From contig NZ_LELA01000049.1 of NCBI RefSeq assembly GCF_001677955.1, forward strand, positions 1-64,000: DNA of 64,000 bases, written 5' to 3'. The position numbers and the translations under genes are program-made. The notes under the pieces are model-generated. The model worked only from the letters and a program-made list of their open reading frames with translations. It was not told where the DNA came from and made no database searches. This document shows, one piece after another, positions 1 through 15,381 of the stretch. Each line of letters opens with the position of its first letter. Within the stretch, counting starts at the first letter, position 1. Origin of the DNA: Chryseobacterium sp. BGARF1 (lineage in GTDB: Bacteria; Bacteroidota; Bacteroidia; Flavobacteriales; Weeksellaceae).

Positions 1-87
1 AACAAGCAACAAGCAACAAGCAACAAGCAACAAGCAACAAGCAACAAGCAACAAGCAACAAGCAACAAGCAACAAGCAACAAGCAAC
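1..87. repeat. Heptamer tandem repeat (AACAAGC)n abutting a start codon
   Basis: Twelve perfect copies of the 7-bp unit AACAAGC plus a partial AAC run from the window edge to the base before the ATG of the OsmC gene. The array probably continues to the left. It leaves no room for a conventional ribosome binding site or promoter next to the gene, so the promoter must lie in or beyond the array. Copy number is likely to vary by slippage. Confidence 0.97.
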
Positions 88-7826: not shown

Positions 7827-8837
7827 ATGAAAAATTCAGAACAACTATACAAAGCATTATCCGAAAGAATTTTAATTCTCGATGGAGCAATGGGAACGAT
7901 GCTTCAGCGATACAAATTTGAAGAAGAAGATTACCGAGGCGAACGTTTCAAAGACTGGGAACACCCGGTAAAAGGAAATAATGACTTACTTTCTTTGACT
8001 CAACCCGAAGCCATTGAAGAAGTTCACAGAAAATACCTAGAATCAGGAGCCGATATTTTGGAAACCAATACATTTTCAGGAACTACGATTGCGATGGCAG
8101 ATTACCACATGGAAGACTTGGTCTACGAACTGAATTACGAGTCTGCAAAAATTGCCAGAAAAGTTTGTGATGAGTTTACCGCTAAAAATCCGGATAAACC
8201 AAGATTTGTTGCAGGTTCTATTGGGCCCACCAACAGAACAGCAAGTTTAAGTCCGGATGTAAATGACCCTGGTTTTCGTGCGATTACTTTTGAAGAATTA
8301 AGACTAGCTTACAAACAACAGTCTGAAGCTTTATTAGATGGCGGTTCAGACATTCTTTTGGTAGAAACAATTTTCGATACTTTGAATGCAAAAGCCGCAT
8401 TATTTGCAATTGATGAAATTCAGGAAGAAAGAGGAATTGAAATTCCGATCATGGTTTCGGGAACGATTACGGATGCTTCAGGAAGAACGTTGAGTGGACA
8501 AACCGCAGAAGCTTTTTTGATTTCCGTTTCGCATTTAAATTTATTAAGTGTCGGGTTCAATTGTGCTTTGGGAGCAAACCAATTAACGCCTTATTTGGAA
8601 ACATTAGCGCATAACTCAGACTTTTTTGTTTCGGCATATCCTAACGCAGGTTTACCAAATGCTTTCGGGCAATATGACGAATCTCCCGAATTTATGGCTG
8701 AGCAGATTAGAGAATATGTAGAAAAAGGATTAATCAATATTATTGGTGGATGTTGTGGTACAACGCCGGAACATATCAAAGCAATCGCTGATTTAGTAGA
8801 TAAATACGAACCAAGAAAGTTGTCGGTTGTTAGTTGA
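7827..8837 (+). CDS. metH: Methionine synthase, homocysteine-binding half (split MetH)
   Basis: 336 residues matching only the N-terminal homocysteine S-methyltransferase module of cobalamin-dependent MetH. The start [32 protein letters not shown] and the zinc ligands are visible: a Cys in GFNCALG and the adjacent pair in [10 protein letters not shown]. The pterin, B12 and activation domains are in a separate gene at 9222. The last residues (LSVVS) are encoded by a TTGTCGG-type repeat. The halves presumably assemble to methylate homocysteine. The gene is collinear with the SAM-riboswitch block. Confidence 0.9.
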
Positions 8838-8848
8838 TGGTTGTCGGT
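8820..8848. repeat. Left flanking heptamer-type repeat of the IVP insertion
   Basis: Degenerate copies of a 7-bp TTGTCGG/TTGTTAG/TTGATGG unit overlap the end of the metH N-half gene and precede the IVP gene. The reverse complement of this unit forms the repeat at 9245-9274 on the other side, so the IVP gene is flanked by inverted repeat arrays. Confidence 0.75.
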
Positions 8849-8854
8849 GTAAAT

Positions 8855-9232
8855 ATGAAAATAAATATGGAATATACAAGTTTGGAAGTATGGATAGAAT
8901 CGCGAAAATTAACCAATTTAGTTTACGAAAAAACTAAAAAATTTCCCAAAGAAGAACTTTTTGGATTAACTAATCAAATCAGAAGATGCTCCGTCTCAAT
9001 ACCATCAAATATTGCAGAAGGTTGTGGCAGAAGAACTTCTAATGATACAATACAGTTTTTGCATATTGCAAAAGGTTCTTTATTTGAATTGGAAACACAG
9101 ATCTACTTATCATTGGATCAAAACTATATTTCTGAATTCGAATTTAATGAAGTTTCAAACCAAGTTTTAGTTTGCAAAAAATTAATCAACGGTTTTATTA
9201 ACTATTATAAAAAGTTGAACAATGGAAAATAA
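8855..9232 (+). CDS. Four-helix-bundle protein, IVP/S23 family
   Basis: About 125 residues of the family first found in 23S rRNA intervening sequences. The signature is [13 protein letters not shown] near the start followed by [18 protein letters not shown] and IAEGCGRR. It should form a four-helix bundle; its cellular role is unknown. Possible starts are ATGs at 8837, 8855 and 8867; the first lies inside the repeat, and homology begins near 8867. It splits the two halves of metH and overlaps the second half by 11 bp. Flanking inverted heptamer repeats suggest that the gene arrived with its repeats as a unit. Confidence 0.85.
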
Positions 9233-11936
9233 CAGTATAAATCTGACAACCGACAACCAACAACCAACAACCAAATATCTTCGTTTGTCAGGCCTCGAGC
9301 CTTTAATTATAACTCCGGAATCAAATTTCATCAACGTTGGTGAAAGAACGAATGTTGCCGGATCTAAAAAGTTTTTAAGATTAATAAAGGAAGAAAAATT
9401 TTCTGAAGCTTTAGATATTGCCCGTGATCAGGTCGATGGAGGCGCTCAGATTCTTGATGTTAATTTTGACGACGGTTTGATCGATGGAAAAGCTTCTATG
9501 ATCAAATTCCTTAACCTGATCGGTTCTGAACCGGATATTTCTAAAATTCCAATCATGGTTGATTCTTCCAAATGGGAGATTTTGGAAGCAGGTCTTCAGG
9601 TTGTACAAGGGAAATGTGTAGTCAATTCTATCAGTTTAAAAGAAGGAAAAGAAGAGTTTGTAAAACACGCCAAAGCAATCAAAAGATACGGAGCAGCTGT
9701 TATTGTAATGGCTTTTGATGAGATTGGGCAAGCTGATAATTACGAAAGAAGACTTGAGATTACCAAACGTTCTTATGATATTTTGGTTGATGAGGTTAAG
9801 TTTCCTGCAGAAGATATTATTTTCGATTTAAATATATTTCCGGTAGCAACCGGGATGGAAGAACACCGAAGAAACGCAATCGATTTCATCGAAGCAACAC
9901 GTTGGGTTCGTCAAAATCTTCCTTATGCTTCGGTGAGTGGAGGAGTTTCTAATGTTTCGTTTTCTTTCCGAGGAAACGATACAGTGCGAGAAGCGATGCA
10001 CTCGGTTTTTCTTTATCATGCCATCCAGGCGGGGATGAATATCGGAATTGTAAACCCGGCAATGCTCGAGGTTTATGATCAAATCAATAAAGAACTTTTA
10101 GAACTTGTTGAAGATGTAATTCTTGATAAAAGGGATGATGCAACGGAACGTCTTTTAGATTATTCTGAACGAAATAAATCGGTAAAGAAAGAAAAAGTTG
10201 AAGAATTAGAATGGCGTACCCATCCATTGCAGGAGAGAATTACACATTCTTTGGTAAAAGGAATCGATCGTTTTATTGAAGAAGATGTAGAAGAGGCAAG
10301 GTTAGAATCTGCAAGGCCTCTTCATGTTATCGAAGTTAATCTAATGACGGGAATGGGTGTTGTTGGAGATCTATTTGGTGCCGGAAAAATGTTTCTTCCT
10401 CAGGTTGTAAAATCTGCCCGTGTTATGAAAAAAGCGGTGGCTTATCTTCAACCATTTATTGAAGCTGAAAAAGACGAAAAACAAAAAGCTAACGGGAAAA
10501 TTTTAATGGCGACGGTAAAAGGAGACGTGCATGATATCGGAAAAAATATTGTGAGTGTGGTTTTGGGTTGTAACAATTACGAAATTGTCGATTTAGGTGT
10601 AATGGTTCCTGCCGAAAAAATTATACAAGCTGCAATTGAACATAAAGTTGATGTTATTGGTTTAAGTGGATTGATTACACCAAGTTTGGATGAAATGGTA
10701 TACATCGCATCAGAACTAGAACGTCAGAATCTTAATTTTCCTTTATTGATAGGTGGTGCAACGACTTCAAAAGCGCATACTGCAGTTAAGATTGATTTAA
10801 AATATAAAAATGCGGTCGTTCATGTGAATGATGCTTCTCGTGCGGTAAATGTTGTAAGTTCTCTTTTGGGAGACCGAAATAAAGAATATGTAGATGACCT
10901 TAAAAATGACTACTCAGATTTTCGTGAAAAGTTTTTGAACAGACAGGTTGATAAAGAGTACGTTTCTCTGGAACAGGCAAGAGCTGATAAATTTAAAATC
11001 GATTGGGAAAATGAAGAAATATTCACTCCAAATCAATTAGGAATTCAGGTTTTTGAAAATCAGGATCTAGCAGAATTGATTCCGTTCATCGATTGGTCTC
11101 CATTTTTCAGAAGTTGGGATCTGCATGGGAAATATCCGAATATTCTTGAAGATGAGGTGGTAGGTGAGCAAGCCAAAGAACTATTTGCAGACGGACAGAA
11201 AATTCTAAAGAAAATTGTTGATGAGAAGTTATTAACAGCAAAAGCAATCTTCGGAATTTTTAAAGCTAATTCAAACGAAACCGATGATATTTTTATTTAT
11301 GATGAAAATGATCAGGAGCAAGTTAAATTTTTAACGCTAAGACAGCAGGTTCAAAAGTCAAAAGGTAAAGATTACTTGGCATTAAGTGATTTTATTGCCC
11401 CAAAAAGTACAGGAAAAACGGATTACATGGGTGCTTTTTGTGTTTGTACAGGCTTTGGAACTGATGAACTATCAGATCAATATGAAAAAGATAATGACGA
11501 CTACAACGGCATTATGGTAAAAGCTATTGCCGATCGTTTTGCAGAAGCTTATGCTGAATTTTTACATAAAAAAGTGCGTACAGAATATTGGGGCTATACC
11601 AATCAGGAAAATTTAAGCAATGAAGAATTGATTGCAGAAAAATATAAAGGAATCCGTCCTGCTCCCGGTTATCCTGCGTGTCCGGATCACTTAGAAAAAC
11701 ATGCGATTTGGAATCTTTTGAAAGTGAAAGAAAATATTGGAGTTTACCTTACCGAAAGTTTAGCGATGTTTCCTACAGCGGCAGTTTCCGGATATTATTT
11801 TGGAAGTCCACATGCAAAGTATTTTGGTTTAGGAAAAATCACAGAAGAGCAGGTGAAAGAATATTCAGAAAGAAAAGGAATTTCTTTAAGAGAGGCGAAG
11901 AAATGGTTATCTCCAAATTTAGCAGATGGAATTTAA
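9222..11936 (+). CDS. metH: Methionine synthase, pterin/B12/activation half (split MetH)
   Basis: 904 residues carrying the rest of MetH. A methyltetrahydrofolate domain starts with [14 protein letters not shown]. The helical cap contains [20 protein letters not shown]. The B12 domain has the DxHxxG ligand motif GDVHDIGKN near residue 437 and [13 protein letters not shown]. The activation domain has the SAM-binding [12 protein letters not shown] at about 812-823. The first about 18 residues (including [11 protein letters not shown]) are encoded by a heptamer repeat and look non-ancestral; family homology starts at [11 protein letters not shown]. The start overlaps the IVP gene by 11 bp, so translation may be coupled to it. 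Confidence 0.93.
9245..9274. repeat. Right flanking heptamer-type repeat of the IVP insertion
   Basis: Tandem CAACCGA/CAACCAA-type 7-bp units lie inside the first codons of the metH C-half gene, inverted with respect to 8820-8848. The unit length of 7 is not a multiple of 3, so slippage here would shift the frame of the downstream protein unless an internal start (for example the TTG in LRLSG) is used. Confidence 0.8.
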
Positions 11937-15320: not shown

Positions 15321-15332
15321 ATCATGAAGAAA

Positions 15333-15377
15333 TCTCAAATTTCAAACCTCAAACCTCAAACCTCAAATTTCAAATCA
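15333..15377. repeat. Heptamer tandem repeat upstream of cysS
   Basis: About six copies of a 7-bp TCAAACC/TCAAATT unit end a few bases before the cysS ATG. Like the array at 1-87 it has a 7-bp period and sits where the ribosome binding region should be. Confidence 0.85.
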
Positions 15378-15381
15378 AATT

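Follow-up and report, generated by a model that had tools for sequence, protein, structure and literature searches.

An S23/IVP gene framed by mirrored heptamer repeats between the two halves of MetH in Chryseobacterium sp. BGARF1, and similar gene-and-repeat loci in other bacteria

In Chryseobacterium sp. BGARF1, MetH is encoded by two separate genes, and a gene of the S23/IVP family with inverted seven-base repeats at its flanks lies between them. How did this cassette come to stand there, did it break metH in two, and is the pairing of gene and repeats peculiar to the junction? The analysis covered a window of 64,000 nucleotides (contig NZ_LELA01000049.1 of assembly GCF_001677955.1, positions 1 to 64,000 of the forward strand), of which a preliminary description had been made from the letters alone, together with IVP loci of other genomes. 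Judged from the sequences compared, the design of a gene between mirrored repeats is general across bacterial phyla, with a unit of 7 or 8 letters whose identity varies from place to place.

Structure of the metH junction

The features of the junction, in window coordinates, are as follows.

7827..8837, + strand: homocysteine S-methyltransferase (Hcy) half of MetH; open reading frame (ORF) with Pfam S-methyl_trans at E 3e-101, final codons and stop inside the 5' array
8819..8848, + strand: 5' heptamer arm, GTTGTCG GTTGTTA GTTGATG GTTGTCG GT, from inverted-repeat search and shuffles
8867..9232, + strand: IVP/S23 four-helix-bundle gene (PF05635, TIGR02436; 23S_rRNA_IVP E 7e-38)
9245..9274, + strand: 3' heptamer arm, inverted copy, GACAACC GACAACC AACAACC AACAACC AA
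9222..11936, + strand: pterin/B12/activation half of MetH; residues 1-16 new, ancestral start codon reading ACC at 9270-9272

Open reading frames and Pfam matches bear out the preliminary description of two MetH genes with the IVP gene between them, the C half carrying Pterin_bind, B12-binding_2, B12-binding and Met_synt_B12 domains. The inverted heptamer repeats which it placed at the flanks of the IVP gene were likewise recovered. The arms lie about 400 nt apart and pair as 8819-8845 with 9245-9271 (27 nt, 85% identity) and as 8825-8848 with 9249-9272 (24 nt, 92% identity); their score of 41 was reached by none of 2000 dinucleotide shuffles (mean 16.6, standard deviation 2.4, maximum 33). 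RNA folding of 8800-9300 gave a z of -4.16. The unit was a heptamer, as described, but a degenerate one with a GTT core and not a single fixed 7-mer of the TTGTCGG/CAACCGA type.

The repeats encode residues of both halves, as had been read from the letters. SVVS and the TGA stop of the N half are encoded by the 5' arm, the TGA overlapping an ATG (TGATG), and the 3' arm falls within 16 residues added at the N terminus of the C half; the start of this half at 9222 does overlap the end of the IVP gene at 9232. The IVP open frame extends over 8834-9232 with ATGs at 8837, 8855 and 8867, and family-like N termini suggest the last of these as the start codon.

Origin of the cassette at metH

When the gap was compared in 23 same-genus relatives, the MetH halves were separate in 23/23. 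Between them lay a desaturase gene in 20, a desaturase remnant in 2, a short hairpin of 8-nt period in 1 (G023) and an IVP gene in none; relatives with the gene at metH and no repeats, which the preliminary description had named as counting against it, were therefore not seen (0/23). Because every one of the 23 relatives has MetH in two genes and none has an IVP gene there, the MetH split was not caused by the cassette. Insertion of the cassette as the cause of the split was accordingly rejected, the separate halves usually standing around a desaturase; the compact cassette and the capture of a new start by the C half, which formed the rest of the earlier account, were retained. The desaturase was not found in the BGARF1 genome by a genome search run without a control genome known to match, its presence in the 20 relatives being known by direct comparison.

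In the 23 relatives the C half begins ATG-A(A/G)(A/G)-TAT, that is M(K/R)YLRLSG (MKYLRLSG or MRYLRLSG). In BGARF1 this ancestral ATG reads ACC and lies within the array, the frame now beginning 16 codons further upstream, at 9222; overwriting of the ancestral ATG by the array explains the odd change of start codon and the 16-residue extension, most of which is repeat-encoded. The tail of the N half reads EPRKLSVVS in BGARF1 versus EPRKVKNFV in G001. By this comparison the cassette occupies the place of an intervening gene and has overwritten the neighbouring coding ends, and the MetH split is older than the cassette. Inspection of orthologous gaps by eye revealed neither a clean empty site nor a target duplication. 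In G001 the gene upstream of metH (L022, ORF 70-1269) starts STDNHQPSTN after its first residues, which resembles a translated GTTG-type array, as in the MetH C half.

Paired arms at the other IVP loci of BGARF1

A search of the BGARF1 genome with PF05635 returned 14 rows representing 13 genes, one broken gene giving two rows. For 12 of the 13 the own partner flank was the best inverted match; this, too, speaks against the counter-case named in the preliminary description. An arm score of 28 was reached by 10/13 loci versus 17/667 sample genes, a sample which includes the window IVP and one GxxExxY gene. Arm identity over the 13 loci was 0.58 at a lag of 7 and 0.56, 0.54 and 0.54 at lags of 14, 21 and 28, compared with 0.22-0.35 at lags outside the multiples of 7; within genes it was about 0.28. 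The repeat unit itself differs from locus to locus. With respect to the search for other IVP genes with the same flanking repeats, which the preliminary description had proposed, arms were found on the other copies but not the same letters. The junctions that hold these cassettes include what we take to be groES-groEL and sufC-sufD.

Occurrence of the design in other bacteria

PF05635 was present in 58/59 genus genomes, 53/119 order genomes and 157/198 phylum genomes sampled, the last at least 90% complete. The collection comprised 174 IVP loci (13 own, 29 genus, 26 order, 26 phylum and 80 named); placement in frame succeeded for 172, and flank was sufficient in 171. The loci are not a random sample, those of genus, order and phylum being the best-scoring copies and the named loci the 80 most similar to the window IVP among 582. 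Period and tree counts were made on 112 of the 171, after exclusion of 37 with an arm score below 22 and 22 with no clear period.

Clear paired arms were present in these 112 loci, with a period, picked among 5-12 nt, of 7 in 85, 8 in 26 and 9 in 1, and none at 5, 6, 10, 11 or 12. In a wider test over lags of 3-15 nt, at a score of at least 22, the peak fell at 7, 14, 8 or 9 in 129/134 IVP loci versus 38/115 control genes. In the 26 order loci the own-pair mean score was 31.5 versus 20.1, and in the 26 phylum loci it was 30.3 versus 17.7, 14/26 of the latter passing versus 3.4% of mismatched pairs; among the named loci a score of at least 26 was reached by 53/80 versus 5.0% of mismatched pairs. 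In the same-genus loci the 7-nt period was clear from lag identities of 0.63, 0.69 and 0.75 at lags 7, 14 and 21. The named loci come mostly from Bacteroidota, with Nitrospirae, KSB1, SAR324, Planctomycetota and others, and some names of metagenome-assembled genomes (e.g. Klebsiella) look mislabelled. No arms were found at several non-Bacteroidota named loci (L224, L251, L258).

S23 genes were also found on 28 plasmid records, of which 12 (11 cyanobacterial, 1 Riemerella) were picked for different organisms before the flanks were seen. On reading, arrays of 7 or 8 nt stood on both sides in 12/12, L349 having only about two units upstream; by a score of at least 26 the count was 9/12 versus 6.1% of mismatched pairs. 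Three of the cyanobacterial plasmid cassettes (L350, L352, L356) lie within CRISPR operons (cas6-IVP-cas4, cas10-IVP-cmr3). They are likely to be passengers there, and the design suggests why a CRISPR operon can contain an IVP gene that is no part of it.

Repeat period and the IVP protein

On the IVP tree of 112 rows the period changed 11 times versus 24.4 in shuffles, with 0/500 as low; the tree rests on few columns and its rows are related to one another, and the shuffles show clustering only, which near-copies help. Period 8 is mostly confined to one supported clade (99/84; 18/22 rows), which takes in Flavobacterium, Sphingobacterium, Niastella, KSB1 and Nitrospirae; other IVPs of Flavobacterium show a period of 7. 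Within period 8, unit similarity followed protein identity (r 0.43, 0/500 permutations as high, shared-neighbour pairs removed). In the clade of the window IVP (fork 93/95), GTT at 7-base spacing occurred in 11/12 arms versus 5/73 other period-7 loci. Period thus defined, as read from the tree, tracks the IVP protein clade, and the unit does so less strongly. A period that goes with the protein and not with the species links the S23/IVP family to heptamer repeats.

Within the repeat unit there are conserved and variable columns, and a family-wide register of about W-W-A-G per 7 nt (3.44 bits versus null 2.95) and A-A-G per 8 nt (4.36 versus null 2.44) was observed. A contiguous 3-nt core for each locus was rejected, being about equal to permutation, although the family-wide AG register stays above its null. 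The matched part of an arm had a median length of 3.7 units.

Genomic placement, turnover and solo arrays

Both neighbours were codirectional with the IVP gene at 152/163 loci (93%) versus 474/915 control triplets, and the 3' array frequently ends at a start codon. Orthologous gaps in G001 and G011, read by eye, varied in content: some had the same cassette, others a hairpin of different unit and no gene, a different IVP between arms of its own, an IVP cut short, a different gene, or nothing similar. At the G000 C2:98073 gap (L003, L011) and its orthologues L323 and L340, different IVPs with different arms were observed by species.

Arrays without an IVP gene are common in the genus and specific to 7 nt. 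Of 35 seen, 4 were set aside (2 within ORFs, 2 at edges) and 31 counted; those in codirectional gaps had the same polarity in 23/23, being G-rich when read from the gene edge into the gap. The units of 8 solo arrays of G000 matched the arms of its own IVP loci weakly (16/200 foreign sets as good), and 16 solo arrays of G002 matched G000 arms better than foreign sets did (0/200 as good). In three IVP-less genomes, intergenic lag-7 arrays at a looser threshold (0.71) numbered 2 in 400 kb (G060), 0 in 200 (G163) and 0 in 200 (G175, which differs strongly in GC), and at a threshold of 0.78 there were 0 in all three. For comparison, there were 10 in 305 kb in G000, 21 in 400 in G002, 3 in 200 in G134 and 2 in 200 in G231.

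Relation to known systems

With the S23-ORF intervening sequences (IVSs) of 23S rRNA in Coxiella and Leptospira the metH cassette shares the protein family and terminal inverted repeats around the ORF. It holds an S23/IVP ORF (PF05635, E 7e-38), terminal inverted repeats capable of stem formation, and heptameric repeats flanking the ORF. In Coxiella (PMC4990558), the 23S IVS has tandem GACAGAT just 5' of the S23 ORF and a 28-bp stem, which RNase III cuts where the first repeat begins; tandem heptamers beside an S23 ORF are shared as well. The cassette differs in lying between two protein genes and not in 23S rRNA, in having locus-specific units and in being present in 13 copies in BGARF1.

Intergenic heptamer repeats have been described from Xanthomonas and Nostoc (PMC4692102) and from Beggiatoaceae, Cyanobacteria and Bacteroidetes (PMC4679880). 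They share with the IVP arrays the 7-nt unit, the intergenic position and nearness to start or stop codons, and in Xanthomonas some 70 pairs are inverted. PMC4692102, a paper of 2015, states that heptameric repeats had no detailed literature at the time. Word searches of the accessible text returned no mention of S23 or four helix in either paper, nor of intervening in PMC4679880. A literature search, with subscription papers mostly outside its reach, found no publication linking S23/IVP genes with 7-nt repeats in the text available to it except the Coxiella IVS paper. The Coxiella S23 heptamers and the intergenic heptamers have each been published, and within the same search no paper joined them as a general rule. 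An excess of heptamer tandem repeats is seen in many bacteria, and the gene-plus-repeat design may help to explain the origin of many of them.

Other elements resemble the cassette in part. REP repeats belong to RAYT transposases, and these share with the IVP cassette one gene between inverted repeats together with scattered solo repeats; the differences are that no Y1 transposase domain is among the Pfam matches and that the repeat sequence is inconstant. From a DNA transposon or insertion sequence the cassette differs in having no transposase and in a terminal repeat unit that varies between loci. Avd of diversity-generating retroelements (DGRs) shares the four-helix-bundle fold with IVP (4dwl, 8ub7), but against the Avd NCBIfam model IVP scored 23 bits, below the cut-off of 80. 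A DGR was rejected since no reverse transcriptase (PF00078) was found in the BGARF1 draft genome, the same profile being found in 3/14 control genomes.

Protein model and explanations considered

We know of no function for the S23/IVP family beyond its occurrence in rRNA insertions. The AlphaFold model of the window IVP has a pLDDT of 96.4, and its fold matches were best to 2gsc and 2rld, each of which holds five chains, and then to Avd (4dwl) and the DGR ribonucleoprotein (8ub7); Foldseek against 4dwl chain D gave a TM of 0.81 by query length (E 5.6e-3). Neither Pfam nor the fold search found a transposase or nuclease domain in the protein, only a four-helix bundle.

With belief and doubt in about equal measure, we interpret the cassette as an element akin to an IVS: an S23/IVP gene, enclosed by inverted arrays of a short degenerate unit, in the gap between co-transcribed genes, with a protein that would read the units. 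The protein would form a five-membered ring like those of 2gsc, 2rld and Avd and would bind nucleic acid as a pentamer, one unit per protomer, recognising an AG- or GTT-type core once in every 7-8 nt. Pairing of the two arms in the met mRNA would give a stem that RNase III could cut, as in rRNA IVSs; such cutting would allow the insertion to be tolerated, and the element would spread through the junctions of transcribed operons. The codirectionality of IVP loci with their neighbours speaks for a protein that sees RNA. The wider proposal is a tentative one about which we are more doubtful than confident: S23/IVP proteins may be repeat readers, each subfamily recognising a short core every 7 (or 8) nt and both seeding and keeping inverted arrays of its own unit in intergenic gaps. 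If so, the IVP-repeat partnership would be a main source of the unexplained surplus of heptamer tandem repeats in Bacteroidota, Cyanobacteria and perhaps Xanthomonas, and the 23S rRNA IVSs would be one niche of it.

A number of results weigh against this interpretation. Periodic arms were not clear at 59/171 pooled loci, and the own partner ranked first at only 13/26 order, 12/26 phylum and 29/80 named loci. Among the 29 top-scoring same-genus loci it did so in 1 (own mean 28.3, others 30.8), and a score of at least 28 was reached by 12/29 versus 15.0% of mismatched pairs; arms shared between orthologous loci raise the mismatched scores in this set, which probably explains the failed ranking. 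Within period 7, unit similarity followed protein identity weakly (r 0.106, 12/500 permutations as high, shared-neighbour pairs removed). A 23S rRNA location of other IVP loci was rejected, as 0/20 scanned with Rfam fall in large-subunit (23S) rRNA. The arms showed no covariation, cross-species scores being about those within species (5 orthologous cassettes, G000 and G001). IVP genes were antisense to both neighbours at 3/12 plasmid loci, and solo arrays occurred also in convergent (5/31) and divergent (3/31) gaps. Array density was not significantly related to IVP number (rho 0.55, p 0.12, n=9 genomes): G045, with 1 IVP, had 7 arrays of several motifs in 200 kb and G019, with 11 IVPs, only 3, which calls for relics or other causes. 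In IVP-less G060 the loose threshold gave 6 intergenic arrays at lag 8, exceeding its counts at the other lags.

The solo arrays in divergent or convergent gaps (8/31), the antisense plasmid copies and the lack of covariation favour either DNA or neutrality. A mobile element acting at the DNA level, which we consider unlikely, would have the arrays as terminal inverted repeats read as DNA by IVP and moved by host recombination or replication, the solo arrays being non-autonomous or decayed copies. The interchange of cassettes, solo hairpins and different IVPs at orthologous gaps, as read by eye, would fit such an element, as would the single polarity of the 23 codirectional-gap solo arrays. 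It would, however, have to move with neither a transposase nor a nuclease domain, with ends that vary in sequence between loci and with no target duplication seen by eye at the orthologous gaps; the 93% of pooled loci that are codirectional also speak against it, though lack of a promoter of its own could cause that.

TRAP binds UAG/GAG triplets, and by analogy a pentameric IVP ring might wrap one arm unit by unit and control the translation of itself and the next gene. The median of 3.7 matched units per arm, the conserved and variable unit columns with the family-wide AG register, the 3' array that often finishes at a start codon and the tracking of the protein by the period all agree with an mRNA regulator of this kind. 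We nevertheless regard it as distinctly improbable, since the host genes vary by locus, the cassette is missing from orthologous junctions in near relatives, and such high turnover is ill-suited to the regulation of core operons. Neutral slippage of the polymerase, with IVP genes merely tolerating the 7-nt arrays, is very improbable: a polymerase-footprint idea for the heptamer excess is cited in PMC4692102 and arrays do exist without IVP or, as in G045, with a single IVP, but lag-7 arrays are near absent from the three IVP-less genomes, period 8 belongs mostly to one IVP clade, with IVPs of period 7 present in the same genus, and the arms are paired and inverted.

Other repeats in the window and related genomes

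A perfect (AACAAGC)n array occupies the contig end (window 1-87), immediately 5' of an OsmC-like gene at 88. A solo CTCAAAC-type heptamer array at 15326-15381 follows a 103-aa ORF with no Pfam match and runs up to the start codon (15382) of a gene resembling Cys-tRNA synthetase. In G045, two pairs of 7-nt arrays (L362:11653-13641) appear by eye to be inverted and nested, about 2 kb across. GxxExxY genes (TIGR04256; L120-L126, 7 in G000) are flanked by locus-specific inverted repeats, with own scores of 32-65 in 6/7. The 7-nt period is absent from the repeats at these 7 G000 loci, and GxxExxY genes are possibly a second gene type with a repeat class of its own.

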